From NCBI GenBank assembly GCA_017464305.1, contig JAFUDS010000042.1:1-44548 (forward strand): a DNA stretch of 44,548 nt. Direction: 5' to 3'. Source of the stretch: Clostridia bacterium. Its GTDB lineage: Bacteria > Bacillota > Clostridia > Christensenellales > Aristaeellaceae. The translations under genes were made by a program, and so were the position numbers. A model generated the notes under the pieces. It was not told where the DNA came from. It did not search any database and saw only the letters and a list, made by a program, of their open reading frames with translations. Of this stretch, positions 33,225-44,489 are shown one piece after another (the first letter of the stretch is position 1; the number at the start of each line of letters is the position of its first letter).

Positions 33225-34367
33225 TTATCCCACAAGCACCTTGCCATCCACAATGACGCGCTTGATTTTGGAGTCGCTGATCATCGGGTTTCCTTCACAG
33301 AGAACCACGTCCCCGTCCTTGCCAACTTCCAGGCTGCCTACCCGATTCTCAATGCCAATATGCTTCGCGGGATTGATCGTAATCGCCTGCAGCGCCTGGA
33401 AGGGATCCATCCCTGCCTTCACGGCCAATCCCGCGCACAGGGGAAGATATTGCTGCGGGATCACCGGAGCATCCGTAATAATGGATACCTGAATGCCCGC
33501 CGCCGCCAGCACGCCAGGGGTAATCCAGGACTTATTGAGAAGCTCCAGCTTGGAAGCATTGGTCAGCGTAGGGCCTACTGCGACCGGCACATTGGCCGCC
33601 TTCAGCTCGTTCACGATCAAGTGTCCTTCCGTACAATGCTCAATGGTGAGCTTCACGTCAAATTCCTTGGCGATCCGAATCGCCGTCATGATGTCGTCGC
33701 TCCGGTGCGCGTGTGCCTTCAGCGGAATCTCCTTTTTCAGCACAGGAATCAGGGCTTCCATCTTCATATCAAACTTGGGCTGCTTCGTAATATCATCCCC
33801 CGCGGCTTCTTTCCGCAGCAGATAATCTCTGGCATTGAAAAGCATCTCCCGCAGCTTGGCCGCCGTAGTCATCCGGGCGGAATCACACTTATCCTTGTAG
33901 CATCTCTTGGGATTTTCGCCAAAGGCGCACTTCATGGCGATGGCAGGCTTGACAGTCGTCTCCTCCACGGTGTTACCGTACAATTTGACCGCAAAGAAGG
34001 TTCCGCCCAGGACATTCGCGGACCCGGGGCCGGTGGCAACTGTCGTCACACCGCCTTCCAACGCCATGGGGATAGCCGCATCCAGAGAATAATAGCTATC
34101 CATTCCCCGGAGCTGAGGACAGCAGATATCATTCATTTCGTTATAGTCATAGGTCGTTCCGGTAGGCCCGCCATACCCGTCCAGCCCAATATGGCTATGA
34201 GCGTCCACAAAGCCAGGATAGGCATTCAGTCCCTCCGCGTCCAGGATGCGTTCATCTCCCTGAAGGCCCTGCCCAATCTCGGCGATTTTTCCATTCACAA
34301 TCCGGATATCCCCCTGATAGGGCTCCGAGTGAATCGCGTCATGGATCAATGCATTTCGAATAATCAT
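33225..34367 (-). CDS. Amidohydrolase-family metal-dependent hydrolase
   Basis: The protein has 380 residues. It has an N-terminal beta-sandwich (IIRNALIHDAIHSEPYQGD), metal site 1 in YPGFVDAHSHIGLDGYG, KAHAHRSDDIMTAI, TIEHCTEGHLI and the aspartate in SIITDAPVI. This layout is that of imidazolonepropionase-like or dihydroorotase-like amidohydrolases; the substrate is unknown. AGGAGG lies 9 bases before the ATG at 34367; nearer upstream in-frame ATGs overlap the RBS. A perfect promoter at 34524-34552 drives it after a 150-nt leader. The adjacent EamA transporter may act on the same metabolite. Confidence 0.88.
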   Translation of the reverse strand: MIIRNALIHDAIHSEPYQGDIRIVNGKIAEIGQGLQGDERILDAEGLNAYPGFVDAHSHIGLDGYGGPTGTTYDYNEMNDICCPQLRGMDSYYSLDAAIPMALEGGVTTVATGPGSANVLGGTFFAVKLYGNTVEETTVKPAIAMKCAFGENPKRCYKDKCDSARMTTAAKLREMLFNARDYLLRKEAAGDDITKQPKFDMKMEALIPVLKKEIPLKAHAHRSDDIMTAIRIAKEFDVKLTIEHCTEGHLIVNELKAANVPVAVGPTLTNASKLELLNKSWITPGVLAAAGIQVSIITDAPVIPQQYLPLCAGLAVKAGMDPFQALQAITINPAKHIGIENRVGSLEVGKDGDVVLCEGNPMISDSKIKRVIVDGKVLVG

Positions 34368-34523
34368 TGCGTTCATCCTCCTTCTGTTTACCTGCATATT
34401 TCTGCGTAATCAGGATAATCTCCTGCAGCTTCACAGCCTTTCGCGGTGAATCCTTTCCCTTGCGCGTTGTGTACACAGCAGTACTGCCAATCTATCACGC
34501 ACACCAACTGCTACCCAGGAGAA

Positions 34524-37917: not shown

Positions 37918-38511
37918 TTACTTTGTCTCTCGACACCAGATCAGTACGTTCTCCCGGATTTCCAAGGGTCCCATGGCATAGTCATCCTCGTTTTCCTGGT
38001 TCATCAGCTCGTACTTCACCGCACGATTCATGACACGGGGCTCCCCCTCTACCACGCGCCGGCCCGGCTCCTGGAAGTCCGGATCCTCGTCGTAGGGATC
38101 AAAGAGGCCAATCTCCCCTTCGGGGAGAATCTTCGTCAACAGCACATAATGACCGATTTTCCCGCTGAAGCAGCGCATGACCACGCACCCACCCCGCTCC
38201 AGGCATTGCCAGCTTTCGCTGCCAGGTGCAATGGCCGTGTCCCCGAATTCCAGGAATTTTGCTTCCACCGGGAATCGGCATCCCTTGCCGAATCCGTTCA
38301 GCCATTCCGCCATATATCGCATGGAGGCCTTGCTGGTGCCTCGCTTCCCCAGCTGTCCAAGCTCACAGTAGGTATCATTCCCCATGACCCAGATGTGCTT
38401 CAGCACCGCGGGGGGGATATCCTCCCGCTCAAAAAGGTAGCGAATAGCATTGGTGATAGTGGTTGGCCCACAGTCGTATTCGCTGCTCTGGTAGTTCAGT
38501 ACATTCTTCAA
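37918..38511 (-). CDS. C39-like cysteine peptidase-fold protein
   Basis: The protein has 197 residues. It shows the papain-like C39 layout: YQSSEYDCGPTTITNAI (Gln and catalytic Cys), IGHYVLLT (His) and LFDPYDEDP (Asp). Bacteriocin-type C39 domains cut GG leaders; stand-alone members are often uncharacterised. A TTG start at 38511 is chosen because AGGAGG is 10 bases before it; the frame continues upstream but the RBS would then be inside the gene. There is no signal peptide. It lies after the oligopeptide ABC operon in the same direction, separated by a structured GC-rich segment. Confidence 0.7.
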   Translation of the reverse strand: MKNVLNYQSSEYDCGPTTITNAIRYLFEREDIPPAVLKHIWVMGNDTYCELGQLGKRGTSKASMRYMAEWLNGFGKGCRFPVEAKFLEFGDTAIAPGSESWQCLERGGCVVMRCFSGKIGHYVLLTKILPEGEIGLFDPYDEDPDFQEPGRRVVEGEPRVMNRAVKYELMNQENEDDYAMGPLEIRENVLIWCRETK

Positions 38512-38577
38512 CCCTTTTGTTCCTCCTATATGTATTCCCCATCTTGCGAAGGGATGTTTCACTCAGGGGCCCTTGGA

Positions 38578-38690
38578 AGACGTCGGCACTTAGCGGGTGG
38601 CGAGGGCGCGCCCGAAGGCAGCCGCTTTGTGCCGCTACGTCTGGAACGGAGGCGCGAGCCGTGCCCCGGAGGGGAACTCCCGCACGCAAG
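38578..38690. ncRNA. Structured GC-rich intergenic segment (candidate RNA element)
   Basis: Nested pairing is seen: AGACG (38578-38582) with CGTCT (38638-38642), and CGGCACTTAGCGG (38584-38596) with CCGCTTTGTGCCG (38622-38634), 11 of 13, around a GGGCGCGCCC palindrome. A second part pairs GTGC (38661-38664) with GCAC (38682-38685) and CCCC with GGGG. It lies between the permease stop and the next gene and codes for nothing convincing. It could be a processed RNA, a REP-like element or a terminator. Confidence 0.45.
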
Positions 38691-38699
38691 GTACCAATT

Positions 38700-39551
38700 T
38701 CACCTTAACTCATTTCGTGGATCAAAAGCGTCCCTCAGCGCATCCCCCACAAAGTTGATGCAAATCACCAGCAGGATGATCACCACCCCCGCCGGTGCCC
38801 ACAGCCAGGGCTTCCCCGTCAGCACGGACAGGCTCTCTGCTCCGTTCAGCATGTTTCCCAAAGACGGAGCCGGGGGCTGCACCCCCATGCCCAGAAACGA
38901 CAGCGCCGCCTCGTCCAGAATGGACAGGGCAAAAACACTGGTGGCGTAGACCAGCACCGGGGCAATGGTGTTCGGAAGAATTTCGCTGAACAGGATGTAT
39001 CGTCCCGGCATCCCCGCGGTGATGTCGCTCTTGCAGAAATTGGTTTCCCGCAGGCTCAGCACATTGCCCCGTACCAGCCGGGTCACCCCCGGCCAATCCA
39101 CAAAGCCAAGAATCAGGATGATGGACCATAGCCCTGGCTGGAAGATGGCCGCCGCCACCAGCACCAGCAGGATATAGGGAAAGGACATGACCATGTCCGT
39201 AAATCCCATGATGATCCGATCCACCCATCCCCCCAGGAATCCGCTGATCAGCCCCAGCGCCACCCCGATGACCGTAGAGATCACCGTCGCCAGGAAGCCC
39301 ACCAGCAGGCTGGATCGCATGGCATACAGGATGCGGCTGTAGACATCCCTGCCGATCTTATCCGTCCCCAGCCAATGCTCCCCGCTGGGTTCCTGGGAGA
39401 ATTTGCCCACCGGCTTGGTGGGGGAATAGGGCGCTACCCAGGGCGCCAGCACGGCCATCAGGATCATCAGGGCCAGCAGCGCCAGGCAGCCCACCGCCAC
39501 CCGGTGACGGCAGAAGCGGCGAAAGATCGCGCTCCTTCTTTTTACTCTCAT
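38700..39551 (-). CDS. Oligopeptide ABC transporter permease, DppC/OppC-like
   Basis: The protein has 283 residues and six helices. The N-terminus APWVAPYSPTKPVGKFSQEP followed by HWLGTDKIGRDVYSRILYA is the DppC hallmark. The coupling loop reads LSLRETNFCKSDITAGMPGR, where family members have EFVEAARALG; the E and both A residues are replaced while G stays. AAAATGAG at the start lacks a clear RBS but lies 12 bp after the partner permease. It forms the channel with the DppB-like protein. Confidence 0.92.
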   Translation of the reverse strand: MRVKRRSAIFRRFCRHRVAVGCLALLALMILMAVLAPWVAPYSPTKPVGKFSQEPSGEHWLGTDKIGRDVYSRILYAMRSSLLVGFLATVISTVIGVALGLISGFLGGWVDRIIMGFTDMVMSFPYILLVLVAAAIFQPGLWSIILILGFVDWPGVTRLVRGNVLSLRETNFCKSDITAGMPGRYILFSEILPNTIAPVLVYATSVFALSILDEAALSFLGMGVQPPAPSLGNMLNGAESLSVLTGKPWLWAPAGVVIILLVICINFVGDALRDAFDPRNELR

Positions 39552-39563
39552 TTTGGCCTCCCG

Positions 39564-40508
39564 TCAATACTTAATCGTGGGATCCACCACCGCGTACAGG
39601 ATGTCCGTCGCCAGGTTGCTGATCTGAACCACCACCGCCGAAAGCAGACAAACCCCCATGATGACGGGATAATCCCGACCCATCACCGCACTCATGGTGA
39701 TGAGCCCCAGCCCCGGCCAGGAAAAGATTTGCTCCACAATCACCGCCCCGCCGAACAGGGTCGGAATCTGCATCCCGATCACCGTCACGATGGGAAGCAG
39801 CGCATTGCGGAAGGCGTGCCGCCGGATGACGATTCGCCGCCCCAGGCCCTTGGCCGTGGCGGTCCGCAGGTAGTCCATCTCCAGAATTTCCAGCACGGAG
39901 GACCGGATGTATCGGATGTTCCCTCCTGCCACGCCGAAGGCCAGCACCAGGGCTGGCTGAATCATGTGACGCAAAATGTCCCCCGCGTCCCCTCCCGTGC
40001 CGGGGGTATACATGCCGCTGGAGGGCAGCCATCCCAGCCGAACGGTAAAGAAATAGATCAGCACCAGCGCCAGGAAGAATCCCGGAATGCTGGACAGCAG
40101 GAAGGAGGCGGAAACCACCGCGTAGTCCCGCTTCTTGTAGCGATGCACCGCGCTGTAGATGCCCGCCGGAATGGCAATCAGCAGTCCCAGCACCATGGAG
40201 ACCCCCATCAGCAGCAGCGTGGGGCCCACGTGGCTGCCGATCAGCTCCGAAACCGGCTGATAGCTCTTGTAGCTGTAGCCTAAATTGCCCTGCAGCACCT
40301 GGGTCAGCCAGGTCCAGTACTGTGCCCAGACGGGCTGGTTCAGCCCCCATTGGGCCGCCCGGGCTTCCTTGGCCGCTTCGCTGACCCGAGGCCCCACCAT
40401 CATGTCCAGCGGGCTCCCGGCCAGGGACATAATGGCGTAGTCGATAATCGTGATGCCCAGCAGCACGGGAATCGCCAGCAGCAGCTTTTTCAGAATGTAT
40501 TTCCACAT
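39564..40508 (-). CDS. Oligopeptide ABC transporter permease, DppB/OppB-like
   Basis: The protein has 314 residues. It starts MWKYILKKLLLAIPVLLGIT and has SLAGSPLDMMVG, GLNQPVWAQYWTWLTQVLQG, FSWPGLGLITMSAVMGRDYP and the coupling loop MDYLRTATAKGLGRRIVIRR, all standard for DppB. AAGGGG lies 4 bases before the ATG at 40508. It sits between the second ATPase and DppC-like genes in the operon. Confidence 0.94.
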   Translation of the reverse strand: MWKYILKKLLLAIPVLLGITIIDYAIMSLAGSPLDMMVGPRVSEAAKEARAAQWGLNQPVWAQYWTWLTQVLQGNLGYSYKSYQPVSELIGSHVGPTLLLMGVSMVLGLLIAIPAGIYSAVHRYKKRDYAVVSASFLLSSIPGFFLALVLIYFFTVRLGWLPSSGMYTPGTGGDAGDILRHMIQPALVLAFGVAGGNIRYIRSSVLEILEMDYLRTATAKGLGRRIVIRRHAFRNALLPIVTVIGMQIPTLFGGAVIVEQIFSWPGLGLITMSAVMGRDYPVIMGVCLLSAVVVQISNLATDILYAVVDPTIKY

Positions 40509-40516
40509 GTTCCCCT

Positions 40517-41479
40517 TCACCTCTCCCAGGCCCGGTTGCAGGCGCTCCGTCTTGCCTGCTCTCCAGCCAATTCCCGCATCTCTCCCCGGTAGTGCAGGCA
40601 GGCTTCCTCCGCCAGGGGGCATCTAGGATACAGGGGGCAGGCCCCCGCCGGGGCCTCCTGGTCAATCTCCTCCTTCAGGGCCAACCGCGCCCGGTCTCGC
40701 ATCCCATCGTCCGCCACTGGCGCCGCGTCCAACAGCGCCCGGGTATAGGGGTGGGCCGGATGGGCGAACAGGGCCTCGGAGGGTCCTTCCTCCACGATGC
40801 TGCCCCGGTACATGACGGCCACGCGGTCGCTGATGTAGTGGACCGCCCCCAGCCCGTGACCGATGAAGACGTAGGCGGTGCCCAGCTGCCGCTGCAGGTC
40901 CCGCAGCAGGTTCAGGATCTGGGCCTGTACGGAGACATCCAGCGCTGAAACCGGCTCGTCCAGCACCAGCGCCTTCGGCCGCAGCGACAACGCCCGCGCA
41001 ATGCATATCCGCTGCCGCTGGCCGCCGCTGAATTCGTGGGGATATCGCTCCGCCATGGCCGTAGGCAGCCCTACCATTTCCAGCAGCTCCGCCGTCCGCT
41101 GAGGGATTTCCGCCTCCGGCGCGATTCGGTGGTATCGCATGGGCTCCTCAATGATCTCCCGCACCCGCTTCCGGGGGTTCAGGGAGGATCCGCTGTCCTG
41201 GAAAACCATCTGAAATTCCGTCCGCCGCTTCCGCAGCTCTCGCTCCGGAACCTGGTCCATCCGCGCGCCGCCAATCCAGATTTCACCCTTCGTGGGCTTT
41301 TCCAGCAGCATCATCAGCCGGGCCACCGTGCTCTTGCCGCATCCGCTCTCCCCGACAATGCCCAGCGTCTCCCCCGGGTACACTTGCAGGTTCACGTCCC
41401 TTACCGCGGTGAAGGGCTTGCTGAATAAGGATTTTTCGCTTTTGACCCGGTATTCCTTCGTCAGGTTTCGGGCCTCCAT
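40517..41479 (-). CDS. Oligopeptide ABC transporter ATP-binding protein, DppF/OppF-like
   Basis: The protein has 320 residues. Walker A is GESGCGKST, the signature is FSGGQRQRI and Walker B is ALVLDEPVSALD. The H-loop reads FIGHGLGAVHYISD, where relatives have ISHDLSVV; the histidine is kept but the flanking Ser and Asp are Gly. The C-terminal CPLYPRCPLAEEAC is the oligo_HPY cysteine motif. GGGAGGGG lies 9-10 bases before the ATG at 41479; an in-frame ATG seven codons earlier overlaps the previous stop. Confidence 0.92.
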   Translation of the reverse strand: MEARNLTKEYRVKSEKSLFSKPFTAVRDVNLQVYPGETLGIVGESGCGKSTVARLMMLLEKPTKGEIWIGGARMDQVPERELRKRRTEFQMVFQDSGSSLNPRKRVREIIEEPMRYHRIAPEAEIPQRTAELLEMVGLPTAMAERYPHEFSGGQRQRICIARALSLRPKALVLDEPVSALDVSVQAQILNLLRDLQRQLGTAYVFIGHGLGAVHYISDRVAVMYRGSIVEEGPSEALFAHPAHPYTRALLDAAPVADDGMRDRARLALKEEIDQEAPAGACPLYPRCPLAEEACLHYRGEMRELAGEQARRSACNRAWER

Positions 41480-41496
41480 CAGTGGCGTCCCCTCCC

Positions 41497-42483
41497 TCAT
41501 GCTTCCTTCACCTCACCCTCCGCGCATCTGGAGTAATGTCCCTCGCCGATCTGGATCATCTCCGCTTGTTTTCGCCGCGTGCATCCCGCCGCCAGGGGGC
41601 ACCTTTCCGCGAATCGGCATCCGGGGATGTCGCCGTAGACCTCCGGCACCGTCCCCGGGATGGAATAAAGCCGCCGCTCCCGGCTGTCCCGCAGTCCCGG
41701 CAGCGCGTGGATCAGGGCCTGGGTGTAGGCGTGGGCGGGATGGGTCAGCAGCTCATGGACCGGCGCTTCCTCCACGCATTGCCCCGCGTACATGACCACT
41801 ACCCGGTCCGCGATCTCCGCCACAACCCCCAGGTCATGGGTGATCAGCAAGATCGCCATGCCCGTCTCCTTTTGCAGGTCCCGCAGCAGCTCCATGATCT
41901 GCATTTGGATGGTTACGTCCAGCGCCGTCGTGGGCTCGTCTGCGATCAGCAGCTTGGGCTCGCAGGCCAGGGTCATGGCGATCATGACCCTTTGGCGCAT
42001 GCCGCCGGACAGCATGTGGGGGTATTTCTTCATGGCCCCCGCCGCGTCCCGGATTCCCGTCCGCTCCAGCAGGCGGATGGCTTTCTCCTCCGCTTCCCGG
42101 CGGCTGATTCCCAGGTGCCGTTCCATGCCCTCGGTCATCTGCCTTCCGATGGGGATCACCGGGTTCAGGCTGTACATGATGTCCTGAAAGATCATGCCGA
42201 TCTCCGGTCCCCGAATCCCATCCAGCTCCCGGGGGCTCATGGCCAGCAGATCCCGGCCCTGGTAGAGAATCTTGCCCCCCGTGGCCCGACCTGTGCCCCC
42301 CAGCAACCCCAGGATGCTCAGGGCGGTGACGCTCTTGCCGCTGCCGCTTTCCCCTACAACGCAAAGAATCTCCCCTTCCCCCAGGGAAAAGGATACATCC
42401 GTCACGACCCGAGTCACCCCCGCGCCGCGGCCAAAGCTGATCTCCAGCTGCTGAATCTCCAGCAGCGGCTTTTTCTGCTCCAA
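41497..42483 (-). CDS. Oligopeptide ABC transporter ATP-binding protein, DppD/OppD-like
   Basis: The protein has 328 residues. Walker A is GESGSGKSV, the signature is LSGGMRQRV, Walker B is LLIADEPTTALD and the H-loop is LLITHDLGVV, all intact. The C-terminal part has CRFAERCPLAAGC, the peptide-transporter cysteine motif. A TTG start at 42483 is preferred: AAGGAG lies 7 bases upstream, while the ATG at 42507 has no ribosome site. It follows the binding protein gene after two hairpins at 42555-42627. Confidence 0.93.
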   Translation of the reverse strand: MEQKKPLLEIQQLEISFGRGAGVTRVVTDVSFSLGEGEILCVVGESGSGKSVTALSILGLLGGTGRATGGKILYQGRDLLAMSPRELDGIRGPEIGMIFQDIMYSLNPVIPIGRQMTEGMERHLGISRREAEEKAIRLLERTGIRDAAGAMKKYPHMLSGGMRQRVMIAMTLACEPKLLIADEPTTALDVTIQMQIMELLRDLQKETGMAILLITHDLGVVAEIADRVVVMYAGQCVEEAPVHELLTHPAHAYTQALIHALPGLRDSRERRLYSIPGTVPEVYGDIPGCRFAERCPLAAGCTRRKQAEMIQIGEGHYSRCAEGEVKEA

Positions 42484-42554
42484 TTTTGTTCTCCTTGTTT
42501 GATTCATCGAGATGGATTTGAAATACATCCACGCATATCGATCGGATTTTCGAA

Positions 42555-42627
42555 GCCCCGTCTCCCCCGGAAGGAGAAGACGGGGCATAACCTTAGAGAA
42601 AACGTCCTCCCCCGAAGGAGGAGGACG
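42555..42627 (-). terminator. Two tandem hairpins after the peptide-binding protein gene
   Basis: CGTCCTCC (42603-42610) with GGAGGACG (42620-42627) is followed on the minus strand by TTTT, and GCCCCGTCT (42555-42563) with AGACGGGGC (42578-42586) follows next. They should lower transcription into the ATPase and permease genes relative to the binding protein. Confidence 0.75.
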
Positions 42628-42639
42628 AGAAAGGATCTC

Positions 42640-44220
42640 TTATTCGATGTCCCAATCCTGTACGTTGATCAGCGTTCCGAAAACGTCCGGCACCGCGTTC
42701 TGCAGCCGGTTGCTGACCGCGCCCAGCTTGGCAATGACCCATCCGGAAATCACCGGCACGTTTTCCTGCATGTCCCGGTTCACCAGCAGGTACTGCTCTG
42801 TAATCTCCGCCTGGTCCGTCAGGCTCTGGCTCTTCTCCAGCGCCTCGTTCACTTCGTTCGTGGTGTATCCGGTCCAGAGGCTCTGTCCGCCGACCAGCCA
42901 GGCGATATCCGTGTAGGGATCGGCAGGCATCAGGCTGTATTCCACGCTCAGGATGTCGTGGGCACCCTCACTGACGGTGTCCAGCAGGTTCGCCAAGTCC
43001 ACCGTACGGATGTTGATCTTCAGGCCAATCTCTTCGAACAGGGCCGCGAAGTATTGCACGGCCTGGCCCCAGGTGCCCTCGGAGGAATTGACATACCAGG
43101 TCAGCTCCGTTTCTGCGCCGTCCGCCTTCGCTTCCGCGATCAGGGCCGCCGCCTTGTCCGGGTCGTATTCCGTTACGCCCAGCTCCTCGCTGTAGTAGGG
43201 GGAGGCGGACACCAGGAATCCGTCCACCAGCTCGCCGCTGTCCCCCAGCAGGGTCTCCAGCATGGACTGCCGGTCCATGCCGTACAGCAGCGCCTGGCGA
43301 ATCCGCACGTCCGGCACCTTCGCCACGTTGATGAAAATCAGCTCGTTGGTAATGGCCGCGCTGGTCACCGCCGTCACATTCTCCAGCGCCTTCACCGCTT
43401 CGTAGTCATCCACCGGGATGTTCGCCATGGTGGGCTGAATCAGATCGATCTCGCCGCTCTGCAGGCCCGCCAGCAGCTGCGCGTCCGCCACCACGTTCAG
43501 GTTCAGGTACTTGATCTTCGGGGCTCCCAGGAAATAGTTCTCGTTGGCCACGTAGTGCACATAGTGCTGCAGGTCAAAGTCCTGCAGGAAATAGGGGCCG
43601 GAGATAACGTCCGGATGATTGAACCATTCGTAGGTCAGCAGCTGGTCCCGCGCCACGTCCTTCAGCACGTGCTTCGGCAGGATCAAGGCATAGCGGCCGA
43701 AATTATTTTCGAAGGTGAACAGCGCCGTGGGCCATTTGGTTTCCACCGTCAAGGTTTTGTCGTCCACCACCTGGATGCCCTCGATGTGCTCCGCGTTCTC
43801 CTCGATGATGCCGTCGTCGCTGACGCCCACGATGGAGTACATGGCCAGGCTGATGTTCGCGCTCTGAGGATCAGCCGCCACCACCAGAGTGTATTCCACG
43901 TCCTCCGCGGTAATGGGCGTGCCGTCGCTCCAGACCGCGTCGTCCTTGATTTTGATGGTGAAATGCAGGTTATCCTCCGTCGTGATGGATTCCGCGATGA
44001 TGGGAACGAAGTTCAGCTCCCGGTCCGCCTCCACCAGGCTCTGGAATACCAGGCTCGTGGCGTATTTCACGATTTCCGTCGCGTCCATCGCCAGGGGGTT
44101 CAGGGAGGTGATAGTGCTGGTGACGCCGATGTTGACCGACTTTTCCTCTTCCGCCGCGGCGAAGGAGAAGGCGCTGATCGCCATCATCAGGGCCAGGACC
44201 AATGCTAAAATCTTTTTCAT
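42640..44220 (-). CDS. Family 5 extracellular peptide-binding protein
   Basis: The protein has 526 residues. A signal peptide (KKILALVLALMMAISAFSF, AAA|EE) without lipobox cysteine is followed by SVNIGVTSTITSLNPLAMDA, then WSDGTPITAEDVEYTL, YGMDRQSMLETLLG and QAVQYFAALFEEIGLKINIR, the DppA/OppA/GsiB (SBP_bac_5) pattern. It captures peptides, or by context glutathione or cysteine-containing compounds. GGAGAG lies 10 bases before the ATG. Its mRNA leader carries a Cys-rich leader peptide and an intrinsic terminator. Confidence 0.94.
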   Translation of the reverse strand: MKKILALVLALMMAISAFSFAAAEEEKSVNIGVTSTITSLNPLAMDATEIVKYATSLVFQSLVEADRELNFVPIIAESITTEDNLHFTIKIKDDAVWSDGTPITAEDVEYTLVVAADPQSANISLAMYSIVGVSDDGIIEENAEHIEGIQVVDDKTLTVETKWPTALFTFENNFGRYALILPKHVLKDVARDQLLTYEWFNHPDVISGPYFLQDFDLQHYVHYVANENYFLGAPKIKYLNLNVVADAQLLAGLQSGEIDLIQPTMANIPVDDYEAVKALENVTAVTSAAITNELIFINVAKVPDVRIRQALLYGMDRQSMLETLLGDSGELVDGFLVSASPYYSEELGVTEYDPDKAAALIAEAKADGAETELTWYVNSSEGTWGQAVQYFAALFEEIGLKINIRTVDLANLLDTVSEGAHDILSVEYSLMPADPYTDIAWLVGGQSLWTGYTTNEVNEALEKSQSLTDQAEITEQYLLVNRDMQENVPVISGWVIAKLGAVSNRLQNAVPDVFGTLINVQDWDIE

Positions 44221-44267: not shown

Positions 44268-44291
44268 AAAAAAGGCATCCGCGCGGATGCC
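44268..44291 (-). terminator. Leader terminator before the peptide-binding protein gene
   Basis: On the minus strand GGCATCCG and CGGATGCC (complement of 44284-44291 and 44274-44281) form a perfect 8-bp stem with a CG loop, followed by T6 from 44268-44273. The 5' arm GGGCATCCGCGC could pair instead with GCGCCTTGCCC (44330-44340), which starts 2 nt past the leader peptide stop. Confidence 0.85.
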
Positions 44292-44341
44292 CTGAAAATC
44301 AAATCGCTTTCTTCCTTCCGGAAAGTATGGGGCAAGGCGCA

Positions 44342-44422
44342 CTACAAACAGGACTGCTCGAAGCAGCCGCCCATACACATACACTTTTTGTTCTGATGAT
44401 TCGCCCGCTCGACCCTGTTCAT
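44342..44422 (-). CDS. Cys-rich leader peptide, candidate attenuator
   Basis: A 26-codon frame begins at ATG 44422 with GGAGAGGAGGGCGAAC upstream, the best ribosome site in the region, and ends in TAG at 44342-44344. It starts MNRVERANHQNKK and then has CMCMGGCFEQSCL, with cysteines at 14, 16, 20 and 25. It is placed 32 bases after the -10 box and 50 bases before the leader terminator. Stalling at Cys codons would free the antiterminator strand at 44330-44340, while a ribosome at the stop codon would cover it. It could alternatively be a functional metal-binding peptide. No homolog is known to me. Confidence 0.6.
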   Translation of the reverse strand: MNRVERANHQNKKCMCMGGCFEQSCL

Positions 44423-44454
44423 GTTCGCCCTCCTCTCCTTCGAAATTCACGATG

Positions 44455-44489
44455 ATTATAGCATTGAAACCTACGAGGTCAATAGGTTT
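44455..44489 (-). promoter_or_regulatory. Promoter of the peptide ABC operon with overlapping inverted repeat
   Basis: On the minus strand TTGACC (44477-44482) and a perfect TATAAT (44455-44460) have a 16-bp spacer. AAACCTA (44467-44473) and TAGGTTT (44483-44489) form a 7-bp inverted repeat across the -35, a likely operator. The remaining bases to 44548 are AT-rich with no gene seen. Confidence 0.75.

Follow-up and report, generated by a model that had tools for sequence, protein, structure and literature searches.

A putative cysteine-codon transcription attenuator ahead of a peptide-import operon in a Clostridia bacterium, with relatives across its taxonomic family

Leader and operon at the contig end

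The window analysed here, a stretch of 44,548 nt, is the entire contig C34 of a MAG that is 68.6% complete, leaving 126 nt between the start of the leader described below and the upstream end of the contig. Read along the minus strand, a promoter, an RBS, a 26-codon frame, its TAG stop, the element TGCGCCTTGCCC, a spacer, a terminator and a further RBS follow one another ahead of a substrate-binding protein gene that starts at 44220, downstream of the terminator. Every one of the elements that an earlier, sequence-only reading had described at this place, from the promoter and RBS through the four-Cys frame and its stop to the pairing element and the terminator, was found on that strand:

44455..44482, minus strand: sigma-70-type promoter TTGACC-16-TATAAT, agreeing with 11 of 12 consensus positions and carrying a TG ahead of the -10
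44429..44438, minus strand: RBS of the leader frame, GGAGAGGAGG
44342..44422, minus strand: 26-codon leader frame MNRVERANHQNKKCMCMGGCFEQSCL, with ATG start, TAG stop and Cys codons at positions 14, 16, 20 and 25
44352..44368, minus strand: in-frame hairpin GGCTGC-N5-GCAGTC, possibly a pause hairpin
44330..44341, minus strand: putative antiterminator 5' strand TGCGCCTTGCCC, directly after the stop
44281..44292, minus strand: GGGCATCCGCGC, the terminator 5' arm and loop or, alternatively, the antiterminator 3' strand
44268..44293, minus strand: intrinsic terminator with a 9-bp stem (44293-44272) and a T run

All four Cys codons lie among the last 13 codons of the leader, and against a Cys content of 1.19% in the operon proteins the occurrence of at least four Cys in 25 codons has a p of about 2e-4. 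Judged from its letters, the leader thus appears as an RBS-bearing short frame with a cluster of putative regulatory codons. Taken alone, the terminator consensus scan is weak evidence (two found, against 1.7 expected in shuffles). Searches of NCBIfam and Pfam at E<=1 gave no match for the leader peptide. T-boxes are the regulators usually attributed to Clostridia; a T-box reading was rejected here, as the window holds no match to RF00230 or any other Rfam family, and a known curated RNA was rejected more generally, as Rfam 15 gave no match at gathering score in the window or in 16 relatives. Elsewhere in the window's genome one T-box scores above the cut-off and two below it, and the genes that follow them are not cysteine-like by eye.

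The operon itself runs from an SBP_bac_5 gene through two ATPases with oligo_HPY domains and two permeases to a protein of 214 residues:

42640..44220, minus strand: SBP_bac_5 substrate-binding protein, whose best solved-structure match is Listeria Lmo0135 (CtaP)
41497..42588, minus strand: ABC ATPase with an oligo_HPY domain
40517..41500, minus strand: second ABC ATPase with an oligo_HPY domain
39564..40622, minus strand: permease with BPD_transp_1; the real start is probably later
38700..39551, minus strand: permease with BPD_transp_1 and OppC_N
37918..38562, minus strand: putative papain-like, C39-type peptidase, last gene of the operon; no Pfam hit, with a Cys and a His invariant in 17 sequences

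The margin by which Lmo0135 leads the PDB matches of the binding protein is narrow (E 2.7e-27, followed by another family-5 protein at 2.3e-25 and NikA at 8e-24), and the NCBIfam models Opp4A and NikA both scored under their own cut-offs. According to PMC10269559, Lmo0135 is CtaP, which is linked to cysteine transport in Listeria, and the CtaP system resembles the present operon in setting a family-5 binding protein beside two permease genes; the relationship is distant at this E value, and the likeness concerns the proteins. For the last gene product, the predicted fold (pLDDT 87.8) comes nearest (E 5.7e-5, TM 0.48) to that of PCAT1, an ABC transporter that includes a C39 peptidase domain.

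In a search of 45 same-genus genomes at E<=1e-60, the binding protein of the 37918-44220 operon was found in the window's own genome and in none of the other 44, and it is about 80% identical in other genera; horizontal transfer, loss and a binning artefact are all possible origins of this pattern. For another window gene (33225-34397), matches at 78-81% were found in four of 20 further genomes of the genus.

Operon heads and family-wide survey

Searching 300 genomes of the taxonomic family with the binding protein returned 46 matches at E<=1e-60 in 43 genomes. Of the 46 operon heads, 42 were inspected (39 retrieved loci together with the window, L109 and L157), the leader tally leaving out G146, a short contig equal to L009, and three loci cut at the contig start (G200:C311, G104:C282 and G306:C213). 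A Cys-rich leader is conserved at 19 of the 42 heads, the window counted, which places the attenuator beyond chance. The remaining 23 have no recognised Cys leader: four of them (L042, L043, L044 and L157) keep promoter and terminator, and 19 have neither leader nor promoter-terminator, two of these having little upstream sequence. The order from binding protein through ATPases and permeases to the C39-like gene is held in most orthologs with enough contig, and the latter gene closes the operon in most of them; an M20 gene often sits between leader and binding protein in the orthologs, though not in the window. Where records matching the binding protein carry names, most belong to MAGs labelled Clostridia or Clostridiales, of which several were sampled from the ruminant gut; the others are one Christensenella sp. 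UBA2853, one Christensenellaceae and three Lachnospiraceae (43-46% identity). Among the Lachnospiraceae orthologs, L150 has a three-Cys frame and a terminator, and L149 and L152 show no Cys frame with a terminator.

A covariance model trained on 12 Opp leaders (R1) returned 36 hits, spread over 32 of 300 family genomes; 29 of these hits carry a Cys-bearing frame, including leaders that precede non-Opp genes, and seven were judged by eye to be chance matches (L116, L117, L118, L120, L154, L155 and L156, at E 0.0004 to 0.01). A second model (R2), used at E<=3e-4, recovered 33 attenuators in 29 of 308 family genomes, spread over 12 of 50 genera, 29 of the 33 having been training sequences and the other four being L132-L135. 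By next gene, they precede Opp genes in 14 cases, NlpA/MetQ in seven, a MetN-like gene in one, SDF symporters in four, CysK in two, a GNAT gene followed by SBP_bac_5 in two and another SBP_bac_5 in one, and two are unassignable; all seven NlpA/MetQ genes match PF03180 and all four SDF genes PF00375. What had been read from one genome as the oddity of a single operon is better described as a regulon-wide element, rich in Met as well as Cys codons.

The model matched the window's own genome alone in samples of the order (396 genomes) and the phylum (398 genomes), so that at this sensitivity the RNA is confined to the taxonomic family, though more diverged Cys leaders may occur elsewhere; a plasmid blastn search with the leader as query gave no match. 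At least three Cys codons are present in all of the 33 hits save L136, which has two and no U run. L136 is the one model hit to approach the pattern that the sequence-only reading had named as counter-evidence, namely hairpins kept with Cys codons lost; the four terminator-keeping operon heads approach it as well, but there frame and antiterminator have been lost together. One further hit, L133 (G171:C74), is apparently an orphaned attenuator, with a Cys-codon leader that lacks a U run and is not followed by any recognisable gene of the regulon.

For leader composition we used 37 leaders, consisting of 32 model hits (L133 excluded) and five found by synteny. An RBS-like purine run precedes all 37, and a TTGAC..TA---T pair lies upstream of 33, including all 18 Opp leaders compared. 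The terminators of those 18 were found by script in 14 and had their arms set by eye in L050, L057, L060 and L061, as did L106 of another class.

Pairing, ribosome position and folding

In the relatives, the frame holds towards its end codons of the form TGC GYC TGC C, which pair with the terminator 5' arm, and RNAalifold, applied unprompted to 12 leaders, returned both an in-frame GGCUGC/GCAGCC hairpin and the 5 + 4 bp antiterminator that had been proposed from the window by itself. Inspected by eye, the alignment shows the in-frame hairpin clearly in the Opp and SDF classes; in most leaders of the NlpA and CysK classes it is either missing or hard to make out. Across a 29-sequence alignment, itself fitted to the covariance model, 95.9% of cells are paired; double changes occur in six of 15 pairs, two of them among the nine of the antiterminator, whose outer pair is G-C in 14 sequences and A-U in 11. 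The covariation score is reached by none of 500 shuffles and by no slid version, as sliding the partner abolishes the signal. The proposed anatomy is thus conserved and covaries. Locus by locus, complementarity exceeds dinucleotide shuffles at p<=0.05 in just 3 of 33 cases (window p 0.34), the combined p being 0.0013 with relatedness ignored. Five divergent leaders found by synteny only (L050, L057, L060, L061 and L063) have different arm sequences with complementary stretches in the leader, of which L063 alone beats shuffles at p<=0.05. Folding and covariation hence argue for mutually exclusive antiterminator and terminator, the per-locus shuffles being the weak point.

Alignment with related leaders, which the sequence-only reading had suggested, upheld the Cys codons and the pairing, with an amendment as to position: the antiterminator strand lies inside the frame in most relatives, often as Cys codons, and just past the stop in the window. 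In 5 of 29 leaders, L136 among them, it falls in a different frame, with Cys codons persisting upstream. Such off-frame or post-stop antiterminators make it possible to tell selection for the codons apart from selection for the RNA, and they provide a natural series, useful for tests of attenuator evolution, in which reading frame, regulatory codons and antiterminator are uncoupled.

With an assumed ribosome footprint of 12 nt ahead, each of 29 leaders has at least one Cys codon, and 28 have at least two, at which a stall would leave the antiterminator free. A ribosome at the stop would overlap it in 26 of the 29, by 1 to 11 bases (a single base in one leader), and would fall short of it in L039, L040 and L109. 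Folding of 15 of the 37 leaders, again with assumed footprints, gave two states. With a ribosome set on the second Cys codon and the transcript ending short of the 3' arm, all 15 pair the terminator 5' arm with upstream sequence, as the antiterminator in the three structures viewed; with the ribosome moved to the stop, all 15 form the terminator. In these models, geometry and folding both associate the stop with termination and the stall with antitermination, the latter for the stage before the 3' arm exists. Once the transcript is complete, the terminator prevails in the minimum-energy fold of 14 of 15 despite the stalled ribosome, so that the switch would have to be decided kinetically, during transcription, as in classical attenuators. 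When no ribosome is placed, 14 of 15 form the terminator; the window, whose 5' arm pairs elsewhere, does not.

The elements, their conservation, their covariation and the sulfur-related gene contexts can be read directly from the sequences, and together they support the classical attenuation logic proposed at the outset. On this sequence evidence the element is probably (at a probability of about 0.85) a ribosome-mediated transcription attenuator for cysteine. We propose that with plentiful Cys-tRNA the ribosome would get to the stop and cover TGCGCCTTGCCC, the terminator would form and the peptide-import operon would be off. With scarce Cys-tRNA it would stall at the early Cys codons, and TGCGCCTTGCCC, left free, would pair with the terminator 5' arm before the 3' arm is made, a kinetic antitermination that would let polymerase read into the transporter genes; we infer that the operon imports Cys-containing peptides or thiol compounds.

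Leader codons, gene contexts and described systems

Cys accounts for 179 of the 1017 residues of the 37 leaders, or 17.6% against 1.19% in operon proteins, and internal Met for 149, or 14.7% against 3.21%. Leader lengths are 22-35 codons. The Cys codons comprise 107 TGC and 72 TGT, and TGY triplets are nearly as frequent in the +1 frame (152) as in frame (179), with 31 in +2, so that a triplet count alone cannot fix the frame. The Met-richness of the leaders may point to joint sensing of Cys and Met: Met codons may be regulatory besides Cys codons, most of all before NlpA/MetQ operons, a possibility that we regard as tentative. The eight leaders of the MetQ/MetN class contain 5-8 internal Met as against 0-8 in 28 others (L104, of unassigned class, excluded; Mann-Whitney p 3e-5, relatedness uncontrolled), and the ABC genes behind L103 are MetN/MetI/MetQ-like, all under NCBIfam cut-offs. 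However, leaders of the SDF class have just 1-3 internal Met but 2-7 Cys, the window leader has two internal Met (p 0.19), and AUG is perhaps retained as RNA sequence.

Several genes behind the attenuator appear to serve the same amino acid as the codons. Against the CysK model TIGR01139 (cut-off 350.95), the first gene after L112 scores 461.1 bits and a gene farther downstream within the NlpA operon of L105 scores 451.7, and a gene fragment behind L113 matches PALP. The SDF proteins of L102 and L108 fall below NCBIfam cut-offs, and the best PDB matches of that of L102 are aspartate and glutamate transporters; a role of these symporters in cystine uptake is presumed from B. subtilis TcyP. The M20 enzyme of L036 has as its best PDB match B. 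subtilis YxeP (E 1e-101), which we take to be ScmP. In PMC12757645, ScmP and the M20 enzymes related to it are given as N-acetylcysteine deacetylases or as candidates for that role, in clusters that also contain acetyltransferases. CysK, the NlpA/MetQ-type importers, the YxeP-like M20 enzyme and the CtaP-like binding protein fit a supply of cysteine and sulfur amino acids.

These contexts also bear on whether a nascent Cys-rich arrest peptide might sense redox state, a metal or a thiol compound in place of Cys-tRNA charging, as the CxC-type motifs close to the C-terminus of several leaders could suggest; we consider this unlikely, given that gene contexts fit cysteine supply, that the peptides are highly variable outside Cys and Met, in length as in Cys spacing, and that the window leader is without a CxC tail. 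Less probable still is a peptide that works in trans, for example by binding metal, over a terminator that just sets basal expression: the four terminator-only operons would suit it, but it leaves unexplained both the covarying antiterminator and its overlap with the frame end. A chance frame over a constitutive terminator, the faintest prospect of all, draws on the p of a lone Cys-rich frame and on the many short frames in a genome, and is rejected on conservation across the 12 genera and several gene contexts.

For the attenuator reading, there is about an even chance that one attenuator family runs a lineage-specific sulfur amino-acid regulon, in which a shared antiterminator module would stand before cysteine synthase, NlpA/MetQ-type importers, SDF symporters and CtaP-like peptide importers, with each leader's amino-acid composition matched to the operon behind it and the reading frame sliding over a constant antiterminator. 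For uncultured gut bacteria, such a multi-operon Cys (perhaps Met) regulon predicts the substrates of otherwise anonymous importers and symporters, of M20 enzymes and of a C39-like peptidase.

Among the top matches listed from open-licence literature, we found no Cys leader attenuator in Clostridia or ahead of a peptide importer. Branched-chain amino-acid leader peptides reportedly act in Listeria and Staphylococcus, as leader-peptide attenuation in Firmicutes for other amino acids and other genes. The histidine leader peptides of hisS and hisZ in bacilli, as described in PMC2965389, are likewise attenuation in Firmicutes with a different amino acid and different genes. In the sources consulted, cysteine leader-peptide attenuation has been described in Actinobacteria and Rhodobacterales; the mechanism proposed here is classical, and among described cases it comes nearest to the cysS motif of Rhodobacterales and the Actinobacterial Cys leaders. 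As described in PMC8632094, the uORFC-8-2 motif upstream of cysS in Rhodobacterales shares with our leaders an upstream Cys-codon frame, two stems and a U run, and stalling for want of Cys-tRNA is proposed there to permit readthrough. That motif is described from Alphaproteobacteria, before cysS only and with two tandem Cys codons, whereas the present leaders come from Clostridia, precede import and salvage genes, carry three to seven Cys codons in 36 of 37 cases and hold the antiterminator at the frame end. With Cys codons at 14 and 16 and an SBP_bac_5 gene next, the window does not belong to a class defined by tandem Cys at about 14-15 before cysS.

The mycobacterial polycysteine short ORFs (Canestrari 2020) and the Actinobacterial Cys leaders of PMC1262725 are similarly reported to place a Cys-codon leader before cysteine genes. 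The former are leaderless by the title of Canestrari 2020 and are termed translation attenuation in PMC13236596, and the Mycobacterium set is given without conserved terminator hairpins in PMC1262725. The window, in contrast, has an RBS and an intrinsic terminator and was rejected as a member of a leaderless class lacking the latter.

Finally, a second small frame of the HIGGVCDRM type lies between terminator and NlpA gene in L103, L105, L106, L110, L114, L115 and L134, with looser variants in L135 and L055; following the terminator as it does, it is perhaps a second regulatory element.
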